From: Acidobacteriaceae bacterium
GTDB lineage: Bacteria > Acidobacteriota > Terriglobia > Terriglobales > Acidobacteriaceae
Assembly: GCA_003131585.1 (NCBI GenBank)
Contig: PKVW01000056.1
Location: forward strand, 72,717-136,716
Length of the DNA: 64,000 bases
Direction of reading: 5' to 3'
Of the stretch, positions 17,170 to 53,616 are shown piece after piece. Each line of letters starts with the position of its first letter. Within the stretch, counting starts at the first letter, position 1. A program made the translations under genes and the position numbers. Under the pieces are notes generated by a model. It was given only the letters and a program-made list of their open reading frames with translations, was not told where the DNA came from and ran no database searches.

Positions 17170-17260
17170 CCTCCGGAGTCTCAGGCAACGTGGAGTCTAA
17201 GTTGGCCTCCTCATTGGCGCGCGGCCCGGATGCGCTGTCCGGGTGTGCTATTGGTGTGCT

Positions 17261-18313: not shown

Positions 18314-18320
18314 GCCAACG

Positions 18321-19953: not shown

Positions 19954-20012
19954 GGCCGTCTTTATCCGGCCGTCTTTTATCCGGCCATCTTGTGTGCGGC
20001 CATCTTTTATCC
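19954..20012. repeat. 14/15-bp tandem repeat, 4 copies, between convergent genes
   Basis: Units GGCCGTCTTTATCC, GGCCGTCTTTTATCC, GGCCATCTTGTGTGC and GGCCATCTTTTATCC run from 19954 to 20012. The last unit contains the stop codon (TAA, 20007-20009 on the minus strand) of the acyl-CoA ligase gene. Confidence 0.85.
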
Positions 20013-22676: not shown

Positions 22677-22719
22677 GACGTACCTCCCAAATCGCTGACC
22701 GCGATGATTTTCGCAAATC

Positions 22720-23997
22720 TCATGGTGTAGCTTTATCCAGTGCCTGGGAGAGGTCAGCAAGAATATCGTCGATATGCTCGATGCCCACGCTCAGCCGAAT
22801 CATCTCCGGGGTCACACCGACCTTTTGTTGTTCTTCGGGCGTCAGTTGCCGGTGCGTGGTCGACGCCGGATGACATGCCAGCGACTTGGCGTCGCCCATG
22901 TTGACCATTCGTTTGAAGAGCTTCAGAGCGTTGAAACATTTCGTCCCCGCTTCAAATCCGCCTCTCACTCCAAACGTCAGCAGGGAGCAGCGTTGGTCGC
23001 CCAGATATCGTTGCGCCATGGGATATAGGGGGTTGTCGGAGAATCCCGCGTAATTGACCCAATCGACCATGCGATGGCCGCGCAGGTGTTCCGCGACTTT
23101 GCGGGCGTTTTCGACATGGCGTTCGACGCGGAGCGCAAGCGTCTCGACTCCCTGAAGCAGCAAGAAGCCGTTAAAAGGAGACAAGGTGGCGCCCGTGTTG
23201 CGCTGGCAAACCGTCCGGCAACGCGCCACATAAGCGGCGTCGCCATAGTGGTCGACGTAGACCACGCCGTGATAGGCGATTTCCGGCCGGTTCAGCATGT
23301 AAAAGCGTTCGGGATAGTCGCGCCAGGGAAATTTACCGCTGTCCACAATCATGCCGCCCAGTGTCGTGCCGTGTCCTCCCATGAACTTCGTCATGGAATG
23401 CACCACAACATCGGCGCCGTATTCGATCGGCCGCAACAGAATCGGCGTCGCGATCGTGTTGTCGACAATCAAAGGCACCCCATGCTTATGCGCGACCGCC
23501 GCCAGTCCCTCGATGTCGGCAACGTTGCCGGCTGGATTGCCAACGCTTTCGCAAAAGACCGCTCGAGTGTTTTCGTCAATCAATTTTTCAACGTCGCCGG
23601 GATGGTCGGTCTTTGCAAACCGTCCCTCGATTCCCCGTTTCGGAAAGATGTGTGCCAGCAAAGTATAGGTAGCGCCATAGAGCTGCGGAAGAGAAACAAT
23701 GTTGTTGCCTGACTCGGCGATATTGATGAGCGAGTACTCGATGGCGGCCATTCCGGAACTCACGCTGAGCGCATCCACTCCGCCTTCGAGCGCGGCGACG
23801 CGTTTTTCCAGAACCGCGTTGGTGGGGTTCCCGATCCGCGTGTAGATGTTCCCTTGAACTTCCAGATTGAATAAGGCTGCGCCATGCTCCGCGCTGTCGA
23901 ACTCAAAGGCTATGGTCTGATAGATCGGCACCGCTACGGCCTTGGTGGTGGGGTCGCCGTCATAGCCGGCGTGAATGGCGATGGTCTCTCTCTTCAT
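22720..23997 (-). CDS. metY: O-acetylhomoserine sulfhydrylase (MetY-type)
   Basis: A 425-residue Cys/Met-metabolism PLP enzyme. The PLP lysine is K204 in HSMTKFMGGHG; SVSSGMAAIEY and YTRIGNPTN are family signatures. MetY uses O-acyl-homoserine and sulfide (or other nucleophiles) to make homocysteine or an aminocarboxypropyl product. It pairs with metA directly downstream. The location at the distal end of an EPS locus is unusual; it may be ordinary methionine synthesis that happens to adjoin it. Confidence 0.93.
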   Translation of the reverse strand: MKRETIAIHAGYDGDPTTKAVAVPIYQTIAFEFDSAEHGAALFNLEVQGNIYTRIGNPTNAVLEKRVAALEGGVDALSVSSGMAAIEYSLINIAESGNNIVSLPQLYGATYTLLAHIFPKRGIEGRFAKTDHPGDVEKLIDENTRAVFCESVGNPAGNVADIEGLAAVAHKHGVPLIVDNTIATPILLRPIEYGADVVVHSMTKFMGGHGTTLGGMIVDSGKFPWRDYPERFYMLNRPEIAYHGVVYVDHYGDAAYVARCRTVCQRNTGATLSPFNGFLLLQGVETLALRVERHVENARKVAEHLRGHRMVDWVNYAGFSDNPLYPMAQRYLGDQRCSLLTFGVRGGFEAGTKCFNALKLFKRMVNMGDAKSLACHPASTTHRQLTPEEQQKVGVTPEMIRLSVGIEHIDDILADLSQALDKATP

Positions 23998-24026: not shown

Positions 24027-25316
24027 CTAGGATCCGGAAGCGGCGCCGGCTTTCTCACGCGGCTCCGGCGCCTTCATTTCGCGAAGTTCATCCCGGCGTG
24101 GAACCGAAATCGACGCAGACTCCCGCGCCAGCGACTTCCTCACCGCGCGCGTGAGAGTACGGGCTGCGAAGCCAGCACCGTAAGCGAACCGCATCACCGG
24201 TCCAAAGCTGTTTGCGGCCGTGATCCCGGCAAAATACAGGCCGGGCAGGGACGACTCGAAACTGGACGAGAGCACAGGCGCGCCGTCCACAACCTCGAGT
24301 TTCGAGCGTAGCTCCGAACTAAGAAATTTCAATCGATCAAGATCTACTTTGTAGCCGGTTGCGGCGATGACATGCTCGGTTAGGATTTCACGCTCACTAC
24401 CGTCGGCGGCACGAAGATGCAGCCGTACGCGGCCGTTCTGGATCTCGGCGCGCTCCGGCGTGTATCCCAGAAGCAGTGGGACCCGCCCCATCACTTTCTC
24501 TTTGGTGAACCATCCTCCAGCAGGGCCTAATACTCTTCGGACAGCTTCCAGCCGGAGGCTCTGGGGAAAGTAATGAAACGCCAGGGGCGCGTCGGCACAA
24601 AAGCGCAACCGCCAGCCGGGGCCAATCCCCGATTGCGGACGTTGGATTTTCTGCCACCAGGAACGAGGCTTGCCCGCCTGCGGCATGCCGTGGAACTTCA
24701 ATGAGGTTCGGCGAGAAACCAGCTGTACATCGGAGCCAGCTTCGTGAAGCAAACCGGCCAGGTCAGTCGCCGAAGAACCGCCCCCAATCACAACTACGTT
24801 GCGGCCCCGGAACGATGCCAGGCTGTGATGGCGGAAGCTGTGCGAGAGAAACTCCGGCGGCAGATTTGCCAGGCCGGCGGGCACGTGTTCGAAGTGGGTG
24901 ATGCCAACGGCGAGCACGACCCGCCGGGCGGTTACGGTTTCGCCGTTGTCGAGGCCCAGACGAAATCCGCTGGGCAAGCGATCCACGCTGGTGACCAGCT
25001 TGTCTTCCAGTTGCGGCACCTTTCGTTCCTTGAACGCCAGACCGTAGGCACTGAAAGTGTCGAGGCGTACCGGAATCCCGGCGTCGGAGTACTCGATTCC
25101 CCGCTCCGCGCAAAAATGTCGCAAGGTAAAGTCGCCGTCGGGATCGTAGATGTTGGAGGCGAAGCCGTCAGACTTGAGACACATGCCTTTGGGCATGTGC
25201 GCCTGCCAGCTATCCATCAGGCGGCCGAAAATGCGGAAGGGTATTCCTCGACGCCGGAAATGCGCGGCGATTGAAAGACCATAAGGACCCGCGCCAATGA
25301 TCGTAGCTTCTAGCAT
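24027..25316 (-). CDS. Flavin-dependent oxidoreductase (NAD(P)-binding monooxygenase-like)
   Basis: A 429-residue two-dinucleotide-domain flavoprotein. The FAD Rossmann motif at the N-terminus is IIGAGPYGLS and the NAD(P) site is VVVIGGGSSATDLAG (about residue 175). ATGYKVDLD and LYFAGITAANSFGP are family marks late in the protein. It resembles lysine/ornithine N-monooxygenases and FMO-like enzymes. Substrate is unknown; a free amine, or a tethered acyl group on the neighbouring ACP, is possible. It is separated from the ACP gene by 290 bp with no credible gene. Confidence 0.82.
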   Translation of the reverse strand: MLEATIIGAGPYGLSIAAHFRRRGIPFRIFGRLMDSWQAHMPKGMCLKSDGFASNIYDPDGDFTLRHFCAERGIEYSDAGIPVRLDTFSAYGLAFKERKVPQLEDKLVTSVDRLPSGFRLGLDNGETVTARRVVLAVGITHFEHVPAGLANLPPEFLSHSFRHHSLASFRGRNVVVIGGGSSATDLAGLLHEAGSDVQLVSRRTSLKFHGMPQAGKPRSWWQKIQRPQSGIGPGWRLRFCADAPLAFHYFPQSLRLEAVRRVLGPAGGWFTKEKVMGRVPLLLGYTPERAEIQNGRVRLHLRAADGSEREILTEHVIAATGYKVDLDRLKFLSSELRSKLEVVDGAPVLSSSFESSLPGLYFAGITAANSFGPVMRFAYGAGFAARTLTRAVRKSLARESASISVPRRDELREMKAPEPREKAGAASGS

Positions 25317-27183: not shown

Positions 27184-29235
27184 TCACAGAGGAGATCCCG
27201 CATGGGCCGTGTTCATACATACGGGCTCGCACAGTACAGGGGTCGCTTCGGCCTTGACATGCTGCTGCAGCACGTAGGCATTGACGACGGGCCAGACTGG
27301 ATCGATGCTCGCGTTTCCCGCTACCGCTTGTTCGACGGCAACCTGCGCGGCCTTACCGTTCCACGCGGATGCTTCCAGGAAGGCTCGGCTCGCAGCGATA
27401 TCGAGCAGCCAGGAACCCAAACCCTGGCGGGCCCAGTCGCTAATCGGGGAAGAAAAGTGGACTTTCTTGGTTCGCAGGCGAACGGAATCGGGCATGAGGT
27501 CTTGCATCGCCAACCGGAGCACCCGCTTGGTATAGCCTCCGCCAATCTTGCTTTCATCGGGCAAGGCAAAGCCAAAAGTCACGAGCCGCCAATCCATGAA
27601 CGGCATGCGCACCTCGATGCCGTGCGCCATGGAAGCCCGGTCAATGCAGCGCAAAAACGTTGGCAGGACGCTGGCATGGAAAAACTCGAACAACATCTTC
27701 TGCAGCGCCGACCCGCCTTTCGGGCCGTGCCGCAGGGCATCGCAATCGAGACTTTTCCCGGACCCTGCCCAAGGCGGCAGAATCGGATCGGACGGCGACG
27801 TGCCCAACAGCCAGGACTGGCCGCGCGTACGGACCGATCGGATTGGCTCCAGGATGCCAAGCCGTTCCAAACCGCGCGTGATGCCGCGCCTGGCAACGCT
27901 GCGGAGATCGGAGGCGATCCCACCATGCTTTAGGAGCTCACCGCTGCCACCAACTTTGGTACCGCCAGCCAGCCCGGCGCGAACCCGCTTCAGGTCAAGG
28001 TACCGCCCCGGCCGGAAGGCCGTCCCGAACTGCTCCTCAATCGCCGCCTGAACGAAGAAATGGTAGCCCCCGAGAAGCTCATCGGCGCCATGGCCATCGA
28101 GGCTGACCCGCATGCCGCAGCGCCGCATCTCCCGATAGATGGACCAGGCTCCCACCAGCGGCACGTACCATACGTCTTCCAGATCAAAGATGACTTTCTC
28201 GATTTCCTGGACCGCCACGTTGACGTCGACGGTAGAGTAATGCGGACGCATGCCCGTATGCGCGACGATCCGCTCGGCATAGCTTCGTTCGTCGAGATCC
28301 GTACCCGGAAAGCAAGCGACAAATGCACGTTGCCAATCCTCCGGAACGTGATCGACCGCGCCCCGCCGGCCAAGCTCGGAGATGGCGCAGGCGACCGCAC
28401 TCGAATCCAGTCCTCCACTCAGGGACGTGGCTATGGCCACATCGCTGCGCAGCCGCAGCCGGCAGGCGTCGAGAAAAATCTCGCGGAAGCGCTCGGACTG
28501 TCCAGCCAGATCCGCTGGCGGCACGGGCAGGTGTTCGAGCGTGTTCCACCACTGGACAATATGCGTTTGGACGCTGCCTGTCGCCTCTTGCCCGACCGTC
28601 ATGCAGTGTCCTCCCGGCAGCCGCTTGACGCCGGGGAGCAGGGTGTGAGGTGTGCATTCCTGGCCTACGACATTCCGCAGCGTTTCCGCGAGCACCTGCT
28701 CATCCAGTCCGCCGCGGCACCAGGCAAGCTGCCGGAAAGCCTTGAGTTCCGATGCGAACGAGAAGCAGCCATCGACCTCGGCATAGTGAAGGGGCTTGAC
28801 GCCGAACCGGTCGCGGGACAGGAAGAGGCGTTTATCGCGCGCATCCCAGATCGCGAAGGCCCACATGCCGTTGAAACGCAACTGGCAATCCGGTCCCCAT
28901 TCGGCATAGGCGGCGAGAATGACTTCGCTGTCCGTTTCCGAAACAAAGCGGTGCCCGAGTTGCCGCAAGCTTTCGCGCAGCTCGATGAAGTTGTAAATCT
29001 CCCCATTAAAGGTGAGCCAGTAGCGCCCATCGGCGTAGGACATCGGCTGCCTGCCGCGCTCGGACACATCGATGACCGCCAGCCGCCGGTGGCCCAACCA
29101 CAACCGATCGGAAGGGAAGCGCTCCAGCCCACGCCCATCCGGCCCGCGATGCGCGAGACTATCCGTAAATGCCCGGAACTCGGCCGCGCCCAGCTCCCGG
29201 CCCGCGTATGCCCAATGTCCTGTAATCCCACACAT
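27184..29235 (-). CDS. asnB: Asparagine synthase (glutamine-hydrolysing), EPS-locus type
   Basis: A 683-residue enzyme from MCGITGHWAY; the open frame continues upstream across the glycosyltransferase genes but without support. C2 is the glutaminase nucleophile. The Ntn domain shows AHRGPDGRG and FNGEIYN; the synthetase domain (from about 235) has the PPi loop SLSGGLDSSAVA. AsnB homologues of this size occur in exosortase-type EPS loci (amidotransferase annotations), where they may amidate a uronic acid or amino-acid residue rather than make free asparagine. Confidence 0.93.
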   Translation of the reverse strand: MCGITGHWAYAGRELGAAEFRAFTDSLAHRGPDGRGLERFPSDRLWLGHRRLAVIDVSERGRQPMSYADGRYWLTFNGEIYNFIELRESLRQLGHRFVSETDSEVILAAYAEWGPDCQLRFNGMWAFAIWDARDKRLFLSRDRFGVKPLHYAEVDGCFSFASELKAFRQLAWCRGGLDEQVLAETLRNVVGQECTPHTLLPGVKRLPGGHCMTVGQEATGSVQTHIVQWWNTLEHLPVPPADLAGQSERFREIFLDACRLRLRSDVAIATSLSGGLDSSAVACAISELGRRGAVDHVPEDWQRAFVACFPGTDLDERSYAERIVAHTGMRPHYSTVDVNVAVQEIEKVIFDLEDVWYVPLVGAWSIYREMRRCGMRVSLDGHGADELLGGYHFFVQAAIEEQFGTAFRPGRYLDLKRVRAGLAGGTKVGGSGELLKHGGIASDLRSVARRGITRGLERLGILEPIRSVRTRGQSWLLGTSPSDPILPPWAGSGKSLDCDALRHGPKGGSALQKMLFEFFHASVLPTFLRCIDRASMAHGIEVRMPFMDWRLVTFGFALPDESKIGGGYTKRVLRLAMQDLMPDSVRLRTKKVHFSSPISDWARQGLGSWLLDIAASRAFLEASAWNGKAAQVAVEQAVAGNASIDPVWPVVNAYVLQQHVKAEATPVLCEPVCMNTAHAGSPL

Positions 29236-40210: not shown

Positions 40211-40999
40211 TCACGCGGAAACCGCACAAGGTGCGTGGCCTTTTGGATTCCCGTTTTGAACCCCAACTTCCGCCAGCGCTTCTCGCACGGTTAGAATCCG
40301 GCAACCGCTTCGAACGGCGCAAGATAGCGCCGCTTCCAGCAGCGAAGGCGTGCAACCGAACGCCGAAGGTCTTGGACGCACGTCATGCGTATAGAAAATC
40401 AACCAGGTCTTTCGTTTCGCGTTTTCCAGGATCAACTTCTCCGCCCGCCCGGCGCTATCGAGATCGCCGTAGAGGCTGTTCGCCCGGAGCAGGTTCAGAT
40501 CGATGTCTGGCCCGTTGCAACCGGGAGCGATGCTTCTCGCACTGCCGGGCCCGAGCCTCAGGGTGCGCTTGGCCTGGAGCGTGACATGGCCAAACGGATA
40601 GGCGAAATTCGTGGAGTCCACGCCGGTTACTTCCTCAATTGCCTTCCTACCCTTTTCCACGTCCTCGCGGAATGCGGCACAGGAAACCGAGCGGCAGGAA
40701 ATGTGGCTGAAGGTGTGGCTGGCTAATTCGTGGCCCCTTTCCAGCAGAGAATCCATATCCTCGGAACGGAACTGCTCCCCGAGCTCGTTCGAGGCGTTCA
40801 TCAGCCCAAAAGCCGCGTAGTATGTCCCCCGAACTCCAAACCGTTCCAAAACAGCCCCACCCGCCGAATAAGCGGTGCGGGGGAAATCGTCGAAGCTGAA
40901 CGATACGATGGGCCCGCGATTCCCCAACGGCACCGTGCGCCGGTACAGCGAGCACAGCACTTTGCGCCGCACCGCACCCAGCCCGGAACGGAGGCTCAT
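40211..40999 (-). CDS. Polysaccharide deacetylase-family protein (second copy)
   Basis: A 262-residue CE4-fold protein. Motif 1 is FSFDDFPRTA (Asp pair), motif 2 SHTFSH (metal histidines) and motif 3 AYPFGH, close to the exosortase-locus deacetylase subgroup. It has no signal peptide. It starts by ATGA overlap with the FkbH-like gene stop, so the two are translationally coupled. Whether it deacetylates a lipid-linked sugar in the cytoplasm or the exported polymer is unknown. Confidence 0.85.
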   Translation of the reverse strand: MSLRSGLGAVRRKVLCSLYRRTVPLGNRGPIVSFSFDDFPRTAYSAGGAVLERFGVRGTYYAAFGLMNASNELGEQFRSEDMDSLLERGHELASHTFSHISCRSVSCAAFREDVEKGRKAIEEVTGVDSTNFAYPFGHVTLQAKRTLRLGPGSARSIAPGCNGPDIDLNLLRANSLYGDLDSAGRAEKLILENAKRKTWLIFYTHDVRPRPSAFGCTPSLLEAALSCAVRSGCRILTVREALAEVGVQNGNPKGHAPCAVSA

Positions 41000-42864
41000 G
41001 CTGGCGTCACCAGGAGCGCGTCTTCGGTAATGATGTCAATGACGCCGTCGTCCGGAACCTGTCTTTCCTTAGGAAACCTCAGGGATAGAACTCCGTCCCT
41101 GTTTTGTGTCTCTTCCTTTTGTGTCTCTTCGTTTTGTGTCTCTTCCATGGCCAGGTCGGCAAACACCTGCCCCGACGGAGCATTCCGCGGAGTCTTGCGG
41201 TAATCAGCGTAAAAATCCTTGCCGGTTTCGGCGATGTACCTGCGCATCATCCAGGTCAGAAACGCGTGTTCGACGCGCTTGGATTGAATGCGGCAACTGA
41301 ACATCAGATCGGTCATTCTCGGTTCGCGGCGATCGACGATGGAAAAACCGATCACTCCATAGCTGCCAAACCGGTCCTCGCAAGTGAGGACAAACGTATC
41401 CAGATGCGGGTTGGACAGTAGATTCCTCAACACCTCGCGATCGTACCGGTTCCCGGAAAAGTTCATCTGGTTCGTTCGTTGGGTCAACTCGTGGACGCGC
41501 TCCAGATTCTCTTCGCTCATCGGACGAACCGTCAGTTGAATCTGGCAGTGCCGGAGGAATGCCATGTAGTCGTTGCTGAAGCTCTGCGCCACCGTCTGCC
41601 GGCTCGCCTCTACTTGATACAGCTTGCGCCGTTGCTGGCTTTCGGAAGTGATGGGAACTTGGCACTCGCCCCGTTCCGGCAGAGTACGGTACTGTTCCGC
41701 ATTCAGAACTTGCACCTCCGGACAGACCGCCTTCACTTCCTCCAGCTCGAACTTGGAGTCGTCGATGAACAGAATGCTGTCCATGCCAATGTTTAGCTGT
41801 TGGGCAATGGCTTTGATTCCCTGGCTTTTCGGTTGCCAGGAGATCTGTGGGCACAGGAAGTACTGATCAAGCTGGAACTTCTTAATCACTCGCAGCGCAT
41901 CTTCCGAATTGTTTTTGCTGGCGATCGAGTGCAGGATTCCGCGCCGATCCAGTGCCTGAATGACGGCGGCGATGTCCGGCTTCAGTTGCAGGCGTTCTGG
42001 ACCGTCCTCGACCAATACGCCGTCCCACAGCGTGTTGTCGAGGTCCCATACGACGCACTTGATTTTCTTGCCGGTCGTGTCAGGCTTCTTGCCGGGCTCG
42101 TCAGCCTTCTTGCTTTCCGCCAGCTCGGTTACAAACTCCATCAGGCCAAAGTAAAGGGTTGTCTCATGGGCCTCGTCGTTGGGGATAAGATCGATGCCAA
42201 ACGGTTGCCGAAGATCGATCAACGCGGTAATTTCCTCCAACGGAACCCGGATGCGGTGAAATCCCGGGGTCAGATCGATCAGTTTTTGGAACGGCATCCT
42301 GGAGCGCTCATCAATCGCGCGCATGGTCAGCGACAGGCGAACATCGTGCGATTCTGGGTTGTAGCATTCCAGAAGAAAGCACGCCGGGAATGCGTGGCCG
42401 TTGGATGCCGAGCTGGCCATTCTCTTCTTGAAACCATAGCGCTTGGCCGTGGCCGTGATCTTTACGAGCGACGGCAAAGGGAATCGCTGCAGCGCGCTTC
42501 CGATCCGGTAGTCTCTTCTTTCAAGCCGTTCCGCTTTCTCCGCCGTATGCAATCGGATATTGCCGGGGGTCCACAGTTTCCCCCAGCGCTTAAAGCGAAT
42601 CTTCAAAAGGTAGGGATTCACGGCCGACGGGGATTCGATTCTCACCATTCCGTCCGCGAACCTCCGGCATCTTCCGTCCTGCCGGGGACTGTACAGATCG
42701 CAGGATGTGTAGCAGGTGGGCCACACACACTCCGTGCAGTGCTCGCTCCATGGGAGCACCGTTCGAGCCCGTATCCGTCCTATGAGATGTTCGAACGAAC
42801 GCATTGCCTCAACAGGAAGTTGAGCCGGACTTTCGGTATTGTAATTTGCTTCTGTCTCGTACAT
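40996..42864 (-). CDS. FkbH-like HAD-IIIC phosphatase with extra N-terminal domain
   Basis: A 622-residue protein. Residues about 1-240 are an extra domain with a cysteine cluster (CTECVWPTCYTSCDLYSP) and a beta-sandwich-like stretch. Residues about 265-400 are a HAD-IIIC phosphatase (VVWDLDNTLWDGVL, ASKNNSED, ILFIDDSKFELEEVK). The C-terminal part (about 430-580) is GNAT-like. FkbH proteins move a glyceryl unit from 1,3-bisphosphoglycerate to an acyl carrier protein. The C-terminus carries three 15-bp units coding EETQN, EETQK and EETQN. It is coupled to the deacetylase by ATGA overlap. Confidence 0.85.
   Translation of the reverse strand: MYETEANYNTESPAQLPVEAMRSFEHLIGRIRARTVLPWSEHCTECVWPTCYTSCDLYSPRQDGRCRRFADGMVRIESPSAVNPYLLKIRFKRWGKLWTPGNIRLHTAEKAERLERRDYRIGSALQRFPLPSLVKITATAKRYGFKKRMASSASNGHAFPACFLLECYNPESHDVRLSLTMRAIDERSRMPFQKLIDLTPGFHRIRVPLEEITALIDLRQPFGIDLIPNDEAHETTLYFGLMEFVTELAESKKADEPGKKPDTTGKKIKCVVWDLDNTLWDGVLVEDGPERLQLKPDIAAVIQALDRRGILHSIASKNNSEDALRVIKKFQLDQYFLCPQISWQPKSQGIKAIAQQLNIGMDSILFIDDSKFELEEVKAVCPEVQVLNAEQYRTLPERGECQVPITSESQQRRKLYQVEASRQTVAQSFSNDYMAFLRHCQIQLTVRPMSEENLERVHELTQRTNQMNFSGNRYDREVLRNLLSNPHLDTFVLTCEDRFGSYGVIGFSIVDRREPRMTDLMFSCRIQSKRVEHAFLTWMMRRYIAETGKDFYADYRKTPRNAPSGQVFADLAMEETQNEETQKEETQNRDGVLSLRFPKERQVPDDGVIDIITEDALLVTPA
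41102..41146. repeat. 15-bp tandem repeat in frame, 3 copies
   Basis: TTTTGTGTCTCTTCC, TTTTGTGTCTCTTCG and TTTTGTGTCTCTTCC. On the minus strand they encode a pentapeptide series (EETQN, EETQK, EETQN) in the FkbH-like protein. Confidence 0.9.
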
Positions 42865-44097: not shown

Positions 44098-45210
44098 TTA
44101 TCCAACGTGTCTGTATAAAACCCGGCCAGCGAAGGAAAGAACGCCAGGCTGCATGCGGGCCAGCAAGTACTTTGCCATTCGGGCTTGCCAGTTCGCGGCA
44201 GACGACTCGAACATGTGGGTGACATTGTCTGAAAGGCCGTACCTCGAATAGATCAGGGTGGACTGCGTGGCGCCCCATCGCTTCTTGAAGGTGATGAGCC
44301 CCTGTTGACCCGCTTCGGTCCGCCCGAAATCAAAGAAATGCAGTCCGGAAGTCTTGGCCTCCTGGATAGCCCTCCAGAGCAGCAAGTGCATGCCGCCAAG
44401 ATTGTTGAATCGGGAGTCGCTGCCGCCGTACTTGTACACCAGAGTATCCCTGTGGCAAATGGTGAGCACCGCCGCCAATGGCCGATCGTCCTTAAACGCT
44501 ACCCGAATGTTGAGGGCGGATCCGAAGCCATCCATCAAATTCACAAACCACTTCCGGGGCTGCGGCGGCCGCCTGTGCCGTTTGCGCGTAATTGTATGAA
44601 GCTTGTAGAAGTAGTCCAGCAGTTCTTCCGTGCATCCCTGGCGATGGCGCAAACCTTCGCGGTCCGCCCGGCGAATTTTCCTCTGGATCGAATCCTTGTG
44701 AAAATTGCGGAACAGCGTATCGATCTCCGGTCCAAGGTCAAGTTGATGGAAAGTGTAGGGTACGGTCGCGTGCTGCAGGGAAGTGACGATTTCGCACCGT
44801 TGCAGAGGACGCATCTCTATGTATCGCCATCGTCCGCAGCGGGATTCCCGCTCCAGAGCCGCCGTGATGGCCGCCAGGTCCTCGGGCGTGTCCACTAAGG
44901 GGTCGCAGTGATCGGAGAATGGCAGCGAGACCAGGCGTCGCCCGGTCAGCCAGCTTTCCACCCGGCACAACACCATGCCGCTCTCCAGTTTCTGGCCAGC
45001 CGGAGACGTTGTATAGGCGATGGGCTTGTATCCATAGGTGCGGGAGAGCGCCCCTAGCCACGCCGAGGAGTGAAAGACGGAGGCTCGGGGATGTCTCTGC
45101 ACGAATTCATCCCAGCGACGATCCTTCAGTGGCTCGATGCAATGAGCCACCTTTGGCTCGCCGCTCGACGGGGGCGCCTCGGTCTCGTTGCGGCACTCAA
45201 GCAAAGACAT
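44098..45210 (-). CDS. FemAB-like peptidyl/aminoacyl transferase (GNAT_6)
   Basis: The protein is about 370 residues from the ATG at 45210; a TTG at 45243 would add 11 residues. It has a double GNAT fold, with HPRASVFHSSAWLGALSRTYGY in the first half and YKYGGSDSRFNNLGGMHLLLWRAIQEA followed by FDFGRTEAGQQGLITFKKRWGA in the second, the typical FemAB-family motif. FemAB-like proteins encoded in exosortase-linked EPS loci transfer an amino acid or acyl group; the usual donor is aminoacyl-tRNA, but no tRNA-binding arm is visible. Confidence 0.88.
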   Translation of the reverse strand: MSLLECRNETEAPPSSGEPKVAHCIEPLKDRRWDEFVQRHPRASVFHSSAWLGALSRTYGYKPIAYTTSPAGQKLESGMVLCRVESWLTGRRLVSLPFSDHCDPLVDTPEDLAAITAALERESRCGRWRYIEMRPLQRCEIVTSLQHATVPYTFHQLDLGPEIDTLFRNFHKDSIQRKIRRADREGLRHRQGCTEELLDYFYKLHTITRKRHRRPPQPRKWFVNLMDGFGSALNIRVAFKDDRPLAAVLTICHRDTLVYKYGGSDSRFNNLGGMHLLLWRAIQEAKTSGLHFFDFGRTEAGQQGLITFKKRWGATQSTLIYSRYGLSDNVTHMFESSAANWQARMAKYLLARMQPGVLSFAGRVLYRHVG

Positions 45211-45318
45211 AGCGGTCAAGAATATCCTATCCTCAACTACCAACCGCCCGTGGCACGACGACTACCTGACGTTGAACACAGCGTGGACGGGCCGACGGGG
45301 CTCGTGGGAGCGCTCAAG

Positions 45319-46527
45319 CTAAAAAGCGTCATCGCTGAACAAGGCTCTTGGCGTTTGCGCCAGGATTTGAAGGTCCAGCCATAAAGACCAGGTACGCACG
45401 TATTGCAGATCCAGACGCACCATGTCGTCAAAGCGTATCCGGCTGCGTCCTCTTATTTGCCACAGGCCGGTGATTCCGGGCTTGACCTCAAGCACGCGGC
45501 GGCGATGCCAAATGTCATATTCCTTGCATTCGTATGCGATCGGCGGTCTCGGGCCAACCAGGGACATATCCCCTCTCAGGACATTGATAAATTGCGGAAG
45601 TTCGTCCAAGCTGGTCCGGCGCAGGATCCATCCCATCCTTGTGATTCGCGGGTCGTTCGTCATCTTGTAAACGGACCGGCTTCCCCCCTCGGTCCGCCCA
45701 TCGTGATCGCCTTTGATAACGCGCTTCATGAATTCCTGATGGATCTGGCGGTCATTGTTCGCATACATCGACCGGAATTTAAGGAAAGTAAAAGTTTTGC
45801 CGAACTGGCCAAGGCGCTCCTGCTTGAAAAGAATCGGCCCCTTGGAACTTAGCTTGACGAGGACCGCGGCAATCAGAAAGATGGGAGATAACAAAACGAG
45901 CGCAATCGCACTGCCAACGATGTCCATCAGGCGCTTCGTCATGCGGCTGAATTTCTGAGCTTCGTTGCGATTTACAAAGTCGGGATAGAGGGTCGGATTG
46001 CCGTGTGCGCTTTCCTGATCCCAGTCCTCCGGGAAAACGTGCATCGAAATGCTGATCTGGCTGAATTTCTCCAGGCTCAAATTGTTGCGCAGCGTTTCGC
46101 TAACCCGGCTCATCATGGTGCCCAGAATCGATTCCCGATCGTCGGCGCTGATGTCCGTAAACATGACGCCCACGATCGATTGGTTTTTGTACCAACCCGT
46201 CACATCGGTCTCGCGGGTGGACAACGACAAGGCCGACAGGATTTTTCCCAGCACGCGTCCGCTTCGATCCGAAGGCAGGCAGTTGCCCGCGTCGAGGAGC
46301 ATGAGCAGGAACGGTTTTCCCGAGCGTTCGGTCCGCTTTCTCTCCAGCGCGATCATGCGATGAAAGGGCTTTTCCCCCAGCACGCCGTAGGTTTGGCCCG
46401 GGACGGGCAGACCTCGCGGCGCGAACACGGATGCATTGGGTGGACTCAACTTCACAACTTGTCTCCCTGGCTCCGCTCCAATTTGTTTGGAAGCGGAAAC
46501 GAACGAGTTACCGAGTAGTTTGGACAT
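45319..46527 (-). CDS. Initiating sugar transferase fused to a GGDEF-like N-terminal domain
   Basis: A 402-residue protein. Residues about 200-400 are a polyprenyl-phosphate sugar transferase (WcaJ/ExoY type): [20 protein letters not shown] membrane helix, [45 protein letters not shown] and VGPRPP. It starts the repeat unit on undecaprenyl phosphate. Residues about 50-175 form a domain that also exists alone at 49446-49976: [19 protein letters not shown] and [22 protein letters not shown]. It looks like a diguanylate-cyclase fold without the GGDEF signature, replacing the usual transmembrane half of such enzymes. Confidence 0.9.
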
Positions 46528-46600: not shown

Positions 46601-48229
46601 CTACTGTTCCCGGTCGGGATGGTGGTTGGTCTGTACGTTGACCTGCAGGGGCTCGCAGAGCCGATAGTAGTTTTCATCTTCGGCCAGGGTTCGGTTCAAA
46701 GGATTCCCCAGCCGGAATTCCCGATGGATACTGGCGAGCGCCGCTTGTGTGTCTTTCTTCGCCACCACGAAGGAGATGGTGCACTCCGATGAGCCTTGCG
46801 CGATCGCGATGAGATCCACCTCATCCCGGCCCAGCGCTCCGAAAGTACGGCCGACCGTGCCGGGAACAGACCTCATGTTCTGACCGACTACCGTAACCAT
46901 GGCAACGGTTGCATCGAGAGTGATGTGTTCCATGGGTTCGTGCGCCAGATCATGAGCAAACTCATGGCGCAGCGCCTCCACCGTGCACTTGGCGAGCGCG
47001 GATGGAACGACCAGGCACAGGTCGTTTTGCGAGGATGCTTGCGAGATCAGCAGCACATCGGCTCGAACGGCCGCCATTGTCCGGAAGGTGCGGCCCAGTA
47101 CATCCTGCACCCCGGCAAAGCCCGGGCCGCCGACGGTGATCAATACCGCGTCGCCGATGGCGGTGAGCGCCTTCACTCCTGCGCCGCTCGGTGAGCCCGC
47201 GGGCGTAATCTTCGTTCCCAGACGTTCTGGCGCGAACGTGTTGCGCACCCAGAGAGGAATGCCGCACGGCATTATGGCCCGGAGAGTCTTCGGATGCAGC
47301 ACTTTAGCGCCGAAGTATGCCAGTTCGGCCGCCTCGCGGTACGAGACTTCTGGGATGGTGCACGCGCCCGGCACCAGGCGCGGGTCGGCCGTCTGCAAGC
47401 CGTCCACGTCCGTCCATAGGATTACTTCGTCCGCATCGAGGACCGCGCCCAGAATCGTCGCGGAATAGTCCGAGCCGCCGCGGCCGAGCGTGGTGAGCAC
47501 TCCGTCTGGCGCGGCGCCGATGAAACCGGTCACCACGGGAACGATGCCCTGCTGCAAGAGGGGAAGCAGGCGCGCTTCGCAGCGTTCTCGCGTTAACTCC
47601 ATGTTTGGGTCAGCGGCGCCATGGCACGCGTCCGTGACCACCAGCTCCGTGGCCTCGATGGCTGCGCTGGCCACGCCGCGCTCGGCCAGCGCAGCCGCAA
47701 CGAGAGGAGTAGAGAGGCGCTCACCAAGACTCGAAAGCGCATCACGGGTTCGCGGTGTCAACTCGCGCAGCAGGATCGTGCCCTGGCACAGGCGGTCGCC
47801 TTCTTGAAACAACTCCGTCATCTTGCGGCCGAGGCGGCTCCGTTCCGCAGTCGAATGGATCAATGCGTTGGCGGCTGCGTCGTGCTGCTGGTGCAGCTCG
47901 CCGAAAATCGCAGCGACCGATTTGTAGTCTCCTGACTCCGATTGGCTGGCGGCCGCGACCAAACGGTTGGTCACGCCGCTCATGGCGGAGACGACCACCA
48001 CCACGTCACTCTCCCGCGAGGCGGTTCGTATGATCTCAACCACCCGCCCAATGCAGGACGCGTCGCCCACCGACGTCCCGCCAAATTTCATCACTCGAAG
48101 TGGCTTCTTCCCCGCGCTGCGAAAGCGGTCTGGGACGCTGCGATGCCGCCGGAGGCGCTCGGGAAAAAGCTCCGAGGCCGGGCCAGGTAATTCGGCGCCT
48201 GCGGCGTGATCCTTGCGTCGAGTTGTCAT
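46601..48229 (-). CDS. lysC: Aspartate kinase with two ACT domains
   Basis: The protein is about 542 residues from ATG 48229, which overlaps the ATP-grasp gene's TGA as ATGA. An N-terminal tail of about 45 residues precedes the kinase domain, which starts VMKFGGTSVGDASCIGR and contains GRGGSDYSATILG and ILWTDVDGLQTADPR. Two ACT modules follow (about 370-520, ALTAIGDAVLITVGGPGF and MVTVVGQNMRSVPGTVGR). It phosphorylates aspartate, the entry to Lys/Thr/Met and homoserine. It lies inside an EPS operon, coupled to an ATP-grasp gene. No fused homoserine dehydrogenase is present. Confidence 0.93.
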   Translation of the reverse strand: MTTRRKDHAAGAELPGPASELFPERLRRHRSVPDRFRSAGKKPLRVMKFGGTSVGDASCIGRVVEIIRTASRESDVVVVVSAMSGVTNRLVAAASQSESGDYKSVAAIFGELHQQHDAAANALIHSTAERSRLGRKMTELFQEGDRLCQGTILLRELTPRTRDALSSLGERLSTPLVAAALAERGVASAAIEATELVVTDACHGAADPNMELTRERCEARLLPLLQQGIVPVVTGFIGAAPDGVLTTLGRGGSDYSATILGAVLDADEVILWTDVDGLQTADPRLVPGACTIPEVSYREAAELAYFGAKVLHPKTLRAIMPCGIPLWVRNTFAPERLGTKITPAGSPSGAGVKALTAIGDAVLITVGGPGFAGVQDVLGRTFRTMAAVRADVLLISQASSQNDLCLVVPSALAKCTVEALRHEFAHDLAHEPMEHITLDATVAMVTVVGQNMRSVPGTVGRTFGALGRDEVDLIAIAQGSSECTISFVVAKKDTQAALASIHREFRLGNPLNRTLAEDENYYRLCEPLQVNVQTNHHPDREQ

Positions 48230-49449
48230 AGGCGTGGGAGGCGCACCGCCGAAAGAGTCCGGACCGGAGTTTGGGAAAAATCCAAAGCGCCCGGCTTCCG
48301 CAGCCTGCGCACGCAGGCCCGCAACAGCTCGGGTTCTTCCCAAGGAACATCGTGGTAGCCCGACTGCAGAAATGCGCTCTCCGGATCCCTCATCCACTCC
48401 TGCGGGAACAGCGCGATCGTGTCGTTTTCCGTGACCTTCGGAGCCGCTCGCACAGCCTCGCCGGAGAGGGCCGCGTACAAGGCAGCGGGAAGATCCCGCC
48501 CGGGACCGAGCGTCAGGTGCCCCACTTGAGTCGCGCGGGGATTAATTTCGATGAGATACGCATTTCCCGTGTGGGTCTCCAGCATGAAATCAAACCCGTG
48601 CAGACCGGAAAGATTAAGCCGCCGGACCATCCCTTCGGCGGCGGCTGACATTTCGGCATTCGCTATCAAGCGCACGACGCTGGAGGGCCCGGCCGAATCC
48701 CGCTTATGGAGCACTTCGAAATGGAGGCTGGCCAGGACGGTTCCTTGCCAGCACGCGACGGCGCTGGTGGCTTCGCGGCCGGCCACAAATTCCTGGGCAT
48801 TCACGATGGATCGGCGACGAAGCAGCGAAGGCCAAACCAGCGTCTTGTCCTGGTCCACCAGTGCCCGCTTTACGGCCCGCGGGAAGAGTGGAGGAGCCTG
48901 CAGCGCCCGCAAGGCGCGTTCCGCCTCTTCGAGCCTGTGGACGATTCTTACGCCGTCTCCGCCCGACGTGCCGTTCGCCTTCAGCACCGTCGGAAACCCC
49001 ATCCGGCCCACCCACTTCTTGAGGGCAAGGGCGTTCGCAATCACCTCGGTCTTCGGAGCGCGGATGCCCTCTTCTTGGGCCAGTTCCATAAACCTGGTTC
49101 TCGCATACACTACCGGAAAACTTTCCGGCATTCCGAGGGAACGTTCGATTAGCGTCGCCGTTTTCCTGCCGCGTCCTTCTTGCCCATGCAGGCGGTGTAG
49201 GTGGAGGGTCGCGAGGTCGTCGCCGGGTACGATCAAATCCGGACGGGTCTCGGCGATCGCGCGCGCGAAAGACATTAAGGGTGTTAGTCCGCGGTAAGCA
49301 TAGGTTTGGCGAATGTCGCTGACCTTGCCGAGCGGATGGCGGGCGGGGCACACAGCATCCACGATGCACCCGGCATGCGCCAGAGCCATCGCCAGCCGGG
49401 CGGTCGGGAGCCAGCGGGACGTCGTGGCAATCAAGACGGTGGGCTTCAC
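48226..49449 (-). CDS. ATP-grasp ligase (carboxylate-amine type), substrate unknown
   Basis: A 407-residue protein starting at GTG with MKPTVLIATTSRWLPTARLA, the pre-ATP-grasp fold, and an ATP-grasp core (about 120-330): PTVLKANGTSGGDGVRIV for nucleotide binding, GFDFMLETHTGNAYLIEINPRATQVG for the metal-binding end. It is similar in style to D-Ala-D-Ala/carbamoyl-phosphate-like ligases. It is coupled on both sides: its GTG overlaps the GGDEF-like gene stop, and its TGA overlaps the aspartokinase start. It may join aspartate or a derivative to another acid or amine (inference). Confidence 0.85.
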   Translation of the reverse strand: MKPTVLIATTSRWLPTARLAMALAHAGCIVDAVCPARHPLGKVSDIRQTYAYRGLTPLMSFARAIAETRPDLIVPGDDLATLHLHRLHGQEGRGRKTATLIERSLGMPESFPVVYARTRFMELAQEEGIRAPKTEVIANALALKKWVGRMGFPTVLKANGTSGGDGVRIVHRLEEAERALRALQAPPLFPRAVKRALVDQDKTLVWPSLLRRRSIVNAQEFVAGREATSAVACWQGTVLASLHFEVLHKRDSAGPSSVVRLIANAEMSAAAEGMVRRLNLSGLHGFDFMLETHTGNAYLIEINPRATQVGHLTLGPGRDLPAALYAALSGEAVRAAPKVTENDTIALFPQEWMRDPESAFLQSGYHDVPWEEPELLRACVRRLRKPGALDFSQTPVRTLSAVRLPRL

Positions 49450-49976
49450 CTTTGGACCAGCCTCCCTGCCTCGTCACGGGTTGCGGGATCGGGATACAAA
49501 GGTGCATCGCCACGCATCGCAGGAATTCGCTCGTCGCGTTCTTCCGGAAAGAGATGGAAAGAAATACTTACCAGATTGAATTGCCGTGAACTCAGACGGC
49601 TTCGCAGAGCTTCGCTCACGCGGTTCATGACTGTGGTCACAATCGAACTTCCATCCTCGATCGTGATTTCCGTGAACATCACGCCTAGCACGGAATCGTC
49701 CTTGTACCAACCCGTCACATCGGTCTCTCGGGTGGTCGGGGCCAGCGCAGACAATATCTTCGCGAGCGCCGCGCCATTCCTCTCCGAAGGGAATTGGGCG
49801 TCCATTTCGATCAGCATCAGCAGAGAAGGCTTCCCGGAGCGTTCGGCTCTCTTTCTCTCGTGCCAGATCACCCGGAGAAAGGCTTCCTCGCGCAAAGTGC
49901 CGCGGTCCGCAGCCGGCACCGGTCCCGCCGGACGTGGACTCGAGTGCGAATCCTTATTGGAGCGACGTACGTTCAT
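49446..49976 (-). CDS. Stand-alone GGDEF-like (degenerate cyclase-fold) protein
   Basis: The protein is 176 residues from MNVRRSNKDS, supported by a GGAGGGA site 8 nt upstream; a longer frame to 50030 lacks it. The core HERKRAERSGKPSLLMLIEM and [22 protein letters not shown] matches residues 50-175 of the sugar transferase at 45319, and neither copy has the GGDEF active-site loop. The C-terminus contains a Leu/Phe-rich SISFHLFPEERDERIP segment like the linker before that transferase domain. It may bind, or antagonise binding of, a nucleotide or the transferase (inference). Confidence 0.78.
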   Translation of the reverse strand: MNVRRSNKDSHSSPRPAGPVPAADRGTLREEAFLRVIWHERKRAERSGKPSLLMLIEMDAQFPSERNGAALAKILSALAPTTRETDVTGWYKDDSVLGVMFTEITIEDGSSIVTTVMNRVSEALRSRLSSRQFNLVSISFHLFPEERDERIPAMRGDAPLYPDPATRDEAGRLVQR

Positions 49977-50092
49977 GATTCCCTCCGCCTGTTCCGCTTC
50001 TTTGGGGAGCGGATACAAGTGAATCAGCAAGCTGCTTTGTGTTGGGGGGATATGCAGAACCAGACAGTGTTAACCGCTTCGCTTACGATCGC

Positions 50093-51007
50093 CTACTTCT
50101 TCGAGCGGGCAGACTCGGGGGATGACGCTGCCGGACCGTATCGTTGATAGTAGTCGCTGTGCGCCGCATCGGCGGAACCGTTCACCAATGCGCCCAGGAG
50201 CTTCGCGGGCTCGAGCGCTTCCAGCCCGCGCTGTAGTTGCCGCTTTTCGGTGACGCTTTTTCGCGTAACCAATAGAACTCCATCCGCCAGCCGGGCCCAG
50301 ATGCTGGTGTCGGCCAGCGGCAGCACCGGCGGAGAATCGATGATGATCCAGTCGAACCACGAGGTCAACTGCTCCATCAAGGGTGAAAGTTTTCCGGACT
50401 GCATCAACTCCAGCGGGTTTTCGGGCGCATTCCCCGCCGGCAAGACCCAAAGCCCTAGAGCATCGAGCCGGTAAACGTTCATGCCTTCGGTTTCGCCACG
50501 GAGGCATTCGCTTAAACCCGGAACTTTGCCCAACCCAAATTTCTGCGCCACCGTCGGCCTCCGCAGATCGCCTTCCAGCAGCAGCGTTTTATGCTGTTTC
50601 CTTCTGGCCAGGGTACAAGCCAGGTTGGCCGCGACCGTGCTCTTTCCTTCCTGGGGAATCGTGCTCGTAATCAGGACCTTCTTCAGCGGCCGGGTTTGCC
50701 CAAGTTGCCTCAAGCGAACCGCCAGGAACCGGAACTTCTCGGCCCCGAGGCTTCCCTCTTCCCCGATGGACACTAACCGGCTGTTCGGCAGGATGGAAAC
50801 CGGCAGCGACCGAAACTGTTCCAGGGAATTCGACGCGTCGGGGGTGGCGGCATTCGCGCTACTCGGCGCGCTCCCCGCTCGCCTCTTGCGCTCCGCGGCC
50901 TGGAGCAGTTCTGTCGCGACAGAGAACGTGGATGGTTCCGCGAGGGACGATTCCTCCCCCAGGCGTTCCGCTTCCGATCTTTGCAATGCATCAAATATAT
51001 GGCTCAT
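50093..51007 (-). CDS. CpsD/CapB-like tyrosine kinase (BY-kinase) of the EPS system
   Basis: A 304-residue cytoplasmic kinase. MSHIFDALQRSEAERLG is the standard opening in exosortase-linked EPS kinases. Walker A is IPQEGKST with K122; Walker A' is LLLEGDLRRP, where the usual first Asp is Glu; Walker B is DWIIIDSPPVLP. The C-terminus carries DYYQRYG, a short tyrosine cluster for autophosphorylation. It regulates polymer length together with the separate chain-length protein (52003). Coupled by ATGA overlap to the ExeA-like ATPase gene. Confidence 0.92.
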   Translation of the reverse strand: MSHIFDALQRSEAERLGEESSLAEPSTFSVATELLQAAERKRRAGSAPSSANAATPDASNSLEQFRSLPVSILPNSRLVSIGEEGSLGAEKFRFLAVRLRQLGQTRPLKKVLITSTIPQEGKSTVAANLACTLARRKQHKTLLLEGDLRRPTVAQKFGLGKVPGLSECLRGETEGMNVYRLDALGLWVLPAGNAPENPLELMQSGKLSPLMEQLTSWFDWIIIDSPPVLPLADTSIWARLADGVLLVTRKSVTEKRQLQRGLEALEPAKLLGALVNGSADAAHSDYYQRYGPAASSPESARSKK

Positions 51008-51990
51008 TGTTCGGTCACCCGGGGTTCAGTCACTCGGACGGGCACACGCGCTGCCAGTTCCTCTTCCCGCGCTTGCTCGCCCTGCAGGTGGGCATATAGT
51101 TCGAGCAGTGTCTTGGCTGCTTTCCGCACGTCGAGTTCTTCGGTTTTTTTCTTTGTTTCCACCGGGGGCGTGTGGATTCCGAGGCGGAAGTCGGTCGCGA
51201 TCGCGTCGATAATGTCTGGAGTCACTCCGCTTGCCTGCCGGGCATAGGCCGCAATCAATGCGTTCTCGCAGATGGTATTGATCAGCCGGGGGATCCCCCG
51301 GGAATGCCGGTGGACCGCGGCGACGGTCTCCGGCGGAAACAGCCCAGAGGCGTCGGGACTCCCCGCGAGCTGGAGCCTGCGCTCGATATAGCCCTGGGTT
51401 TCGTTCAGATCCAGCGACGCCAGCCGGGAGCGCAGGGCAATTCTCTGTTTCAGTTGCCGCAAATCGACGGAGTCCAGTTTCTCGTCCAGTTCGGGCTGCC
51501 CGACCAGAAGGATCTGCAGCAACTTCTCGTCCGCAGTCTCCAGGTTCGTCAAGAGGCGGATCTCTTCAAGAATGTCGGTCGACAGAAGATGCGCTTCGTC
51601 GACCACCAGCACCGTCGTCAATTTTTTCTCGCCGCGCGAGACCACGTAACCCGCCAGCTGAAGCAGAAGCTCGCTCTTGTTCTTGCCCGAGGCCGGCAAT
51701 CCTAGATCGCCGGCAATGTACTGCAGGAACTCAAAGGGGGACAGCCGTCCGTTAAATACGTACGCGTACTTGACGTCGGCGCTCTGCCTCAGAGATTGCA
51801 GCAGGCACCGCAGCAGAAGGGTTTTGCCCGTTCCCACCTCTCCGGTTAAGACCACGAACCCTTTGTGCCGCCGGACACCGTAGTAAAGAGCGGCCAAAGC
51901 TTCGTTGTGCCTCCGGGTCGGAAACAGGAACGAAGGGTCTGGAGTAATCTCAAACGGATTACGCTTCAAGGTGTAAAAGGCTTTGTACAT
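51004..51990 (-). CDS. ExeA-like AAA ATPase of the exosortase/EPS system
   Basis: A 328-residue protein. MYKAFYTLKRNPFEITPDPSFLFPT opens the family; Walker A is LTGEVGTGKTLLLRCLL and Walker B is VLVVDEAHLLS; GIPRLINTICENALIAAYA is sensor 2. In EPS loci this ATPase is a constant neighbour of the kinase; its role is thought to be assembly of the secretion channel through energy coupling. It lies 12 bp from the chain-length gene. Confidence 0.92.
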   Translation of the reverse strand: MYKAFYTLKRNPFEITPDPSFLFPTRRHNEALAALYYGVRRHKGFVVLTGEVGTGKTLLLRCLLQSLRQSADVKYAYVFNGRLSPFEFLQYIAGDLGLPASGKNKSELLLQLAGYVVSRGEKKLTTVLVVDEAHLLSTDILEEIRLLTNLETADEKLLQILLVGQPELDEKLDSVDLRQLKQRIALRSRLASLDLNETQGYIERRLQLAGSPDASGLFPPETVAAVHRHSRGIPRLINTICENALIAAYARQASGVTPDIIDAIATDFRLGIHTPPVETKKKTEELDVRKAAKTLLELYAHLQGEQAREEELAARVPVRVTEPRVTEQ

Positions 51991-52002
51991 GGGTGAATGT
52001 CG

Positions 52003-53616
52003 CTAGCCGCGCAAGTAACTGAGGGCCGACCCCAGCAAAATCGTTACCGATACGAGAACTGCCGTTGCCCAGCCGATCCACAGCCGCCGGCGCTCACTTT
52101 GCTCGTCTGCCGCAGCCGCCAGGGCCGGGATTTCCGAGATCACCGCAACCGGCAGGAGCTTCTGCAGTTCTTTCTCGTCATAAATCCGGTCATCCATCAT
52201 TTCGAAGGCTCCAGCCACGATGATGCCCAGCGCCAATCCGATGCCCAGCCCAATCACACAGAACTTCAGCCGATTGGGGAAGTCGGGTTTCACGGGCAGG
52301 CTGGGAGGATCGATAATGCGAAAGCGCTCACCCTGCTGGAGCAGTTCCATGCTGGTGGCCATGGCCGACTCATTCTTCTTCTTCAAGAGCTCGTCGTAAT
52401 TCGCTTTGGATTGATCGTAGCCCCGGGTCAGGTCGGAGAGCTGTTGCTCCCGCACCGGCTCCTGATTCAGCCGTGCCTGGTAGTCAGTGACCTTTGTCTT
52501 CAGTTCCACGATCCCGTGCTCGCGATTGGCAATCTCGACCCGGTTCGCCTGGAGTTGCCCCTGCAACTGCACCATCGGGGCCGACGCGTCCCGTGACTCA
52601 GCTGGATCTGAGGCTGGCGCCGTTGCGTTAGAGTCGCCCTGGCCGCCAGAAGCTTTCGTTTTCTTATCGGCGACGAGCTGGCTTCTCATCTTTTCGGTCT
52701 TGGCGATTTGCTCCTTAACCTTGCGCACGTCAGGATGGCGGTCGGTGTAATGCGAGCTCAAATCCGCTAGTTGCGCCCGCAGTTTATCCAGCTCCTCGTC
52801 GAGCGCATTCAAACCCACAGACGCCCCGCTCTCGCTTTTCGGCGAGCCTTGCAGCGAGCGGTATTGATTGACCAGCGTCTCCAGGTAGACGCGCTGCTGT
52901 TTGGCTGTATTGAGCGCGTCTTCTTCGGTTTGCAACTGGGACTGCAAGCCGGCCAGAATCTGCAGATTACTCCCCACTTGGGTGGGCAGCTCCCCGATGT
53001 GTTGCCCCTTGAACTCGCGAATCTTCCCTTCCTGGTCAGACAAGGTCTTGCGTGCGGTTTCCAACTGGCCCTGGAGAAACTTCGTGGTGTCTTCCGACTG
53101 CTGCTGGCGCACCTCCAGATTCTCGCTGATGAAGAGGTTGGTGAGTTCGCTGGTCACCTGTTGGGCAACATGAGGATCGTGGGAGGAGTAGTAAACGTTA
53201 AAGGCGCTGACCCGGTTTTCGGGATCGCGCACCAATTCGATTTCGATCTCTTTGCGCATCCGCTCCACCTTCTCGTCGGATGTTAGATGGCCGTTCGAAT
53301 CCGCGTACAGGTTTAGCTGATCGATAATGTGCAGCAAGCGGGTACGGCTGAGAATCTGCTGGGTAATGCTCCGCAACCGGTCTTGCAGATCGTCGTTCAC
53401 GTTGGGCGTGACATAGTCCTTCGGCATGGTGGGCTGTTCCACCAGAATCAGTGTGCCCGAGCGATAGCGTGAGGGGAGAACCCAGCTGGCCCCCCATACT
53501 ACAAGCCACCCGAGAAGCAGCGGGATCAGGAACTGCATGTGACGGCGGCGGGCCATCCCGAGGTAATGCGGGAGATCGAACCGGTCCGAGTTTTTTTCTT
53601 CGAGATCTTCAGCCAT
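52003..53616 (-). CDS. Polysaccharide chain-length determinant (Wzz/GumC-like, no kinase)
   Basis: A 537-residue inner-membrane protein with one helix near the N-terminus (about 28-48, MQFLIPLLLGWLVVWGASW), a long periplasmic coiled-coil (about 130-470, with LQTEEDALNTAKQQRVYLETL), the IDPPSLPVKPDFPNRLKF proline-rich segment and a second helix (about 470-490, FCVIGLGIGLALGIIVAGAF), plus an extra C-terminal helix. It controls polymer length together with the separate BY-kinase. The upstream gap of 72 bp holds a 14-bp tandem repeat. Confidence 0.92.
   Translation of the reverse strand: MAEDLEEKNSDRFDLPHYLGMARRRHMQFLIPLLLGWLVVWGASWVLPSRYRSGTLILVEQPTMPKDYVTPNVNDDLQDRLRSITQQILSRTRLLHIIDQLNLYADSNGHLTSDEKVERMRKEIEIELVRDPENRVSAFNVYYSSHDPHVAQQVTSELTNLFISENLEVRQQQSEDTTKFLQGQLETARKTLSDQEGKIREFKGQHIGELPTQVGSNLQILAGLQSQLQTEEDALNTAKQQRVYLETLVNQYRSLQGSPKSESGASVGLNALDEELDKLRAQLADLSSHYTDRHPDVRKVKEQIAKTEKMRSQLVADKKTKASGGQGDSNATAPASDPAESRDASAPMVQLQGQLQANRVEIANREHGIVELKTKVTDYQARLNQEPVREQQLSDLTRGYDQSKANYDELLKKKNESAMATSMELLQQGERFRIIDPPSLPVKPDFPNRLKFCVIGLGIGLALGIIVAGAFEMMDDRIYDEKELQKLLPVAVISEIPALAAAADEQSERRRLWIGWATAVLVSVTILLGSALSYLRG

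Follow-up and report, generated by a model that had tools for sequence, protein, structure and literature searches.

An accessory aspartokinase coupled to an ATP-grasp ligase in an acidobacterial EPS locus, with a possible role in supplying a homoserine-derived unit

The exopolysaccharide (EPS) locus of this soil acidobacterium, a member of the Acidobacteriaceae, encodes, directly behind an ATP-grasp ligase, an aspartate kinase (AK) that is an accessory copy, and across the genus this AK co-occurs with homoserine-processing genes located in the same block. The most probable reading, to which we give a probability of roughly 0.6, is that the accessory AK is dedicated to a biosynthetic module in the EPS locus and that a homoserine-derived unit is ligated, likely to an EPS component.

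The ligase and aspartokinase in the EPS operon

The window, i.e., the whole 64,000 nucleotide stretch of DNA that was analysed, carries on its minus strand, in this order, genes for a BY-kinase, a GGDEF-like domain, the ATP-grasp protein, the AK and a polyprenyl sugar transferase. These and the other genes related to EPS are:

50093-53616, minus strand: BY-kinase, ExeA-like ATPase and Wzz genes of the EPS operon (from translation; order kept in relatives)
50093-51007, minus strand: BY-kinase (recognised from translation)
49446-50030, minus strand: GGDEF-like domain gene, 4-nt overlap with the ATP-grasp gene
48226-49449, minus strand: ATP-grasp carboxylate-amine ligase family protein (GTG start, 407 aa)
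46601-48229, minus strand: accessory aspartate kinase, AK domain and ACT domains (542 aa; Pfam, NCBIfam)
45319-46527, minus strand: polyprenyl glycosylphosphotransferase, the EPS priming sugar transferase (Pfam/NCBIfam)
44098-45243, minus strand: FemAB/GNAT-type protein, relative of the XrtA-associated FemAB family
27184-29235, minus strand: AsnB-like amidotransferase (from the MCGI start)
15080-15985, minus strand: exosortase, near the same EPS-type locus

A sequence-only reading of this DNA had placed the pair between the EPS kinase and the sugar transferase, with AsnB, MetA and MetY in the same block and the AK starting in the stop codon of the ligase gene. The neighbours are as it claimed, and the AK frame does overlap the TGA stop of the ATP-grasp gene as ATGA. 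Chance was rejected as the source of this overlap because the -4 start recurs: an in-frame ATG lies at exactly -4 in 8/17 pair loci where examinable (window, L155, L156, L157, L160, L165, L166 and L175, with a GTG in L161), and in L155 it is the sole in-frame start. As the first ~40 residues of the window AK are poorly conserved, a GTG/ATG just before the KFGGTS motif (~48094-48089) is an alternative candidate start.

Two successive 4-nt overlaps link the GGDEF-like, ATP-grasp and AK genes. The free-standing GGDEF-like gene aligns at 53% identity with the sugar transferase's N-terminal domain and is, by sequence, a truncated paralogue of it, so that a copy of this domain stands on either side of the ligase/AK pair. 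AsnB is a generic amidotransferase relative, with homologues near the pair in only some relatives.

The ligase belongs to the ATP-grasp superfamily by both its fold and its conserved active-site residues, K157, E301, N303 and R305 being invariant. The predicted model (pLDDT 90.8) is a full-length ATP-grasp fold that matches a PurK-type protein (3k5h_B, Z 24.9 over 325 residues, rmsd 3.4); the L-amino acid ligase 3vot matched no more strongly (Z 22.0), and PurK, biotin carboxylase, GAR synthetase/ligase and L-amino acid ligases scored about equally. The modelled fold points to no particular substrate. Pfam and NCBIfam assign the protein to generic ATP-grasp, and its score against the sugar-transfer-associated ATP-grasp family (PF14397) was below threshold (19.1 bits vs a gathering value of 31.4).

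A second lysC and the regulatory domains of the accessory copy

The sequence-only reading had allowed that the window AK might be a relocated housekeeping gene and had proposed a search for a second lysC as one of its checks. Such a gene was found. The source genome (3.93 Mb, 96% complete) has another AK at C23:33233-34582, directly between asd and dapB (both recognised from translations), and this canonical asd-lysC-dapB arrangement argues that the window AK is not the relocated housekeeping gene.

The window AK passes the curated cut-off of TIGR00657 (381 bits vs 208.7), has the Pfam domains AA_kinase and ACT_9, and carries the catalytic motifs KFGGTS, SAMSxVT, GRGGSDYSA and WTDVDG; it is predicted to be a true aspartate kinase from its motifs and family, both of which it shares with the housekeeping LysC of the same genome. 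It differs from that enzyme in sequence (39% identity), in its operon and in its ACT motifs, which are conserved in LysC. The ACT1 and ACT2 effector motifs are altered in many EPS-type AKs, whereas they are invariant in the housekeeping LysC compared. Across eight genomes, EPS-type AKs have 66% identity in the catalytic region and 55% in the ACT region, which thus diverges faster; the housekeeping enzymes of the same genomes show the reverse (88% and 91%). Because its ACT motifs are degenerate and its ACT region is faster-evolving, the EPS-type AK is probably free of the usual tight feedback control, and fits a dedicated enzyme feeding the homoserine branch of the same locus.

It was also considered that the AK homologue might phosphorylate the carboxylate of some other substrate, e.g., one made by the ATP-grasp protein. 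Genes whose products act in one series of reactions are often joined by 4-nt overlaps, and the tight coupling of the reading frames speaks for this idea. Nevertheless, we judged it very improbable, given that nearly every EPS-type copy retains the catalytic motifs and that in one congeneric genome (G067, L068:8743-11411) the AK orthologue directly precedes asd, a sign of a true aspartokinase step. The closest solved structure is the aspartokinase of M. jannaschii, and many ligase orthologues have no AK beside them; both likewise count against a non-aspartate substrate. The assemblies of G061 and G067 yielded no further AK, so the AK may serve the cell at large there too.

Conservation of the pair and of the homoserine-processing module

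Of 45 congeneric genomes, 13 have a close AK orthologue (47-80%), the window's own genome among them. ATP-grasp orthologues were found in 11/36 congeneric relatives (one at 47%), a count that left out G061-G063 and G067, where orthologues were later found. The two genes adjoin in ten genomes (G001, G012, G015, G017, G024, G032, G033, G061, G062 and G063), usually with BY-kinase, sugar transferase and FemAB genes around them, and in some relatives the pair, or the AK alone, stands beside nucleotide-sugar genes (RmlC/RmlD-like, Gfo/Idh, DegT-like). Scanning GTDB with an alignment of the ATP-grasp proteins gave 80 loci, 31 close (at least 56% identity) and 49 distant. Conservation of the pair in the EPS loci of relatives, on which the earlier reading depended, is borne out in 17/31 close loci, where the AK lies directly downstream of the ligase; it is absent in the other 14 and was found near the ligase in 0/49 distant loci, which span Acidobacteriota, Alpha- and Gammaproteobacteria, Verrucomicrobia and others. 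Many distant loci have instead, next to the ligase gene, a relative of the window flavoprotein (24027-25316). Since the distant loci lack the AK and many have the flavoprotein, the ligase/flavoprotein unit is the widespread core and the AK looks like a Terriglobales addition; its absence from the 14 close and all 49 distant loci suggests that the ligase reaction can dispense with it.

Several other arrangements were seen around the ligase relatives. Flavoprotein and ATP-grasp genes stand together, often divergently and without AK or MetY, in L185, L188, L191, L207, L213, L227 and others; loci of this type are polysaccharide-type, occur in Acidobacteriota, Alpha- and Gammaproteobacteria and Verrucomicrobia, and contain a pair that has no name. 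An aspartyl/asparaginyl beta-hydroxylase family gene (PF05118) lies near the ligase in L160 (2716-3342), L165 (17578-18219) and L170 (15202-15999), two of which also have the AK; these genes count in favour of the main reading. In L170, L165, L172 and L173 the ligase is accompanied by further flavoprotein paralogues and by another ATP-grasp-like family (cluster 48).

The homoserine-processing module occupies 16.3-25.3 kb of the window, its MetA and MetY genes lying ~23 kb from the AK:

24027-25316, minus strand: flavoprotein oxidoreductase (Pyr_redox_3 family), adjoining ATP-grasp relatives in several phyla
22720-23997, minus strand: MetY-type O-acylhomoserine PLP enzyme (full-length copies in the genus 85-93% conserved)
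21606-22760, minus strand: MetA-type homoserine O-acyltransferase (start uncertain)
20007-21572, minus strand: AMP-forming acyl-CoA ligase, linked to MetA/MetY in relatives
18309-19910, plus strand: TPP enzyme (over the cut-off of NCBIfam PRK07586, 'acetolactate synthase large subunit')
17243-18313, plus strand: carrier-protein and thioesterase didomain
16306-17169, plus strand: class IV aminotransferase (PRK13356, branched-chain aminotransferase)

The first four genes form a conserved run in relatives, often with the TPP, carrier-thioesterase and aminotransferase genes nearby in opposite orientation. The nearest solved structures to the TPP enzyme are benzoylformate decarboxylases.

What is new here is that the AK co-occurs across the genus with the MetA, MetY, flavoprotein and TPP enzyme of the window. 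In the sample of 45 genomes, a single genus with incomplete and fragmented assemblies, AK and MetA were both present in 12, AK only in 1, MetA only in 2 and neither in 30 (Fisher p 3.9e-8); both MetA-only genomes are <80% complete, and for genomes at least 90% complete the counts are 10/0/0/17. The flavoprotein (at least 60% identity) is present in all 13 AK genomes (13/0/4/28) and the TPP enzyme in 12 of them (12/1/5/27). For MetY, at E 1e-100, the counts are 10/3/2/30, the three exceptions having contig-end or interrupted MetY pieces. The AK is patchily distributed on the lysC tree, with 8 changes, 6 of them forced by well-supported branches; MetA changes with it in 4-5 of 6 independent contrasts and against it in none, and with phylogeny thus corrected for the sign test yields no more than p ~0.06. 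This co-occurrence supports a dedicated aspartate- or homoserine-derived product.

That AK, MetA and MetY are instead methionine/threonine housekeeping genes relocated into the EPS block seems improbable to us, even though MetA is above its NCBIfam equivalog cut-off, MetY fits O-acetylhomoserine (OAH) sulfhydrylase models and G061 and G067 appear to have no other AK. The source genome has no MetX match by TIGR01392, so its MetA could also be used in methionine synthesis. MetX was rejected as the housekeeping acyltransferase, as TIGR01392 matches in the genus stay below cut-off and are uncorrelated with MetA. Relocation is opposed by the canonical lysC, by a MetY of the window type present solely in module-bearing genomes of the genus survey, and by the acyltransferases: both MetA and a MetX-like gene are lacking from eleven near-complete congeneric genomes, and the two occur independently of each other (p 0.76), so MetA/MetY can probably not be taken as just the genus's own methionine pathway.

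A proposed product and its relation to known systems

The sequence-only reading had proposed a dedicated aspartate- or homoserine-derived substituent on the polysaccharide or a carrier. A dedicated product is supported by the second lysC, the conserved pair and the co-occurrence of AK with MetA and MetY; attachment to the polysaccharide or a carrier is something that we infer from the location. In the pathway that we propose, flux would run from aspartate, which the AK would phosphorylate to aspartyl phosphate without the usual tight end-product control. Housekeeping Asd and Hom would convert this to homoserine (the genome has two Homoserine_dh matches), and the MetA of the locus would O-acylate it. 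By exchanging the acyl-oxy group, the MetY-type enzyme may then form a 4-substituted 2-aminobutyrate such as homocysteine or an amino acid related to it. The flavoprotein may oxidise this unit, and the ATP-grasp protein would link it through an amide-type bond to a second component, most probably a sugar or carrier-bound part of the EPS. Given that the AK is optional beside ATP-grasp orthologues, its part would be precursor supply, with no step on the ligase product.

The way in which the precursor would be supplied is that of the Fusarium fusaric acid (FUB) cluster, which the locus also resembles in gene content and which encodes an aspartate kinase (FUB3), a homoserine O-acetyltransferase (FUB5) and an OAH (thiol-)lyase (FUB7) (PMC6738028). 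The fusaric-acid-type set, in which a single locus encodes a dedicated AK along with a homoserine acyltransferase and an OAH PLP enzyme, is found in the window together with a flavin enzyme, and its MetY matches FUB7 structures strongly, although general OAH sulfhydrylases score higher. Unlike the FUB cluster, the window is bacterial and an EPS locus, its acyltransferase is of the MetA (HTS) family, its flavoprotein is Pyr_redox_3-type rather than FMN-dependent like FUB9, and an ATP-grasp ligase is present; no PKS, the key gene of the FUB cluster (FUB1), was recognised among the window ORFs. The module may accordingly make a free small metabolite that merely shares the EPS locus, with the ATP-grasp protein as its peptide-type ligase and the product fusaric-acid-like or another homoserine-derived non-proteinogenic amino acid or dipeptide. 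We regard this as the less likely course, though a serious one. In its favour, the locus has the AMP ligase and the carrier-protein/thioesterase didomain, and in G067 the flavoprotein/MetY/MetA/AMP-ligase run is contiguous, with the ATP-grasp gene directly after it and merely remote relatives (~40% identity) of the window EPS genes beside it. However, in several phyla the ATP-grasp/flavoprotein relatives have polysaccharide-type genes around them, and in most relatives the pair is inside an EPS operon or near nucleotide-sugar genes.

Ligation to an EPS component would have a parallel in Cj1438C of Campylobacter jejuni, a capsule amidoligase in which a TupA-like ATP-grasp domain is fused to a glycosyltransferase and which uses serinol-P or ethanolamine-P (PMC11800379). 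Both ATP-grasp proteins are encoded in polysaccharide loci, and the amide on a polysaccharide that is a feature of Cj1438C is what is proposed here; the window ligase differs in being stand-alone, in its PurK/biotin-carboxylase-like fold and in its AK partner. The FemAB-type protein, AsnB-type amidotransferase and exosortase recall XrtA/exosortase-type EPS loci (relatives of TIGR03019 and TIGR03108), but the window scores are under both equivalog cut-offs, and AK, MetA and MetY are outside the genes that those models describe.

A non-exhaustive search of the open literature gave no precedent for an aspartate kinase in EPS, capsule or polysaccharide loci; a paper on the K15 capsule mentions homoserine for an acetyltransferase fold only. 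We tentatively suggest, as a more specific and doubtful proposal, a previously undescribed EPS decoration, in which a relaxed AK and MetA/MetY provide a homoserine-derived amino acid that is installed by a new ATP-grasp/flavoprotein pair found in several phyla. If this is true, a homoserine-derived group is predicted on acidobacterial EPS, a new ligase/flavoprotein pair of several phyla would be named for amino-acid decoration, and an aspartokinase whose regulatory domains are relaxed by nature would be on offer. To our knowledge, it is rare for a polysaccharide locus to contain duplicated genes of primary amino-acid metabolism.

Elsewhere in the EPS operon, an FkbH-domain protein is encoded at 40996-42864 of the window. 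This domain, which carries out glyceryl-type acyl transfer in other systems, is another hint of acyl decorations.
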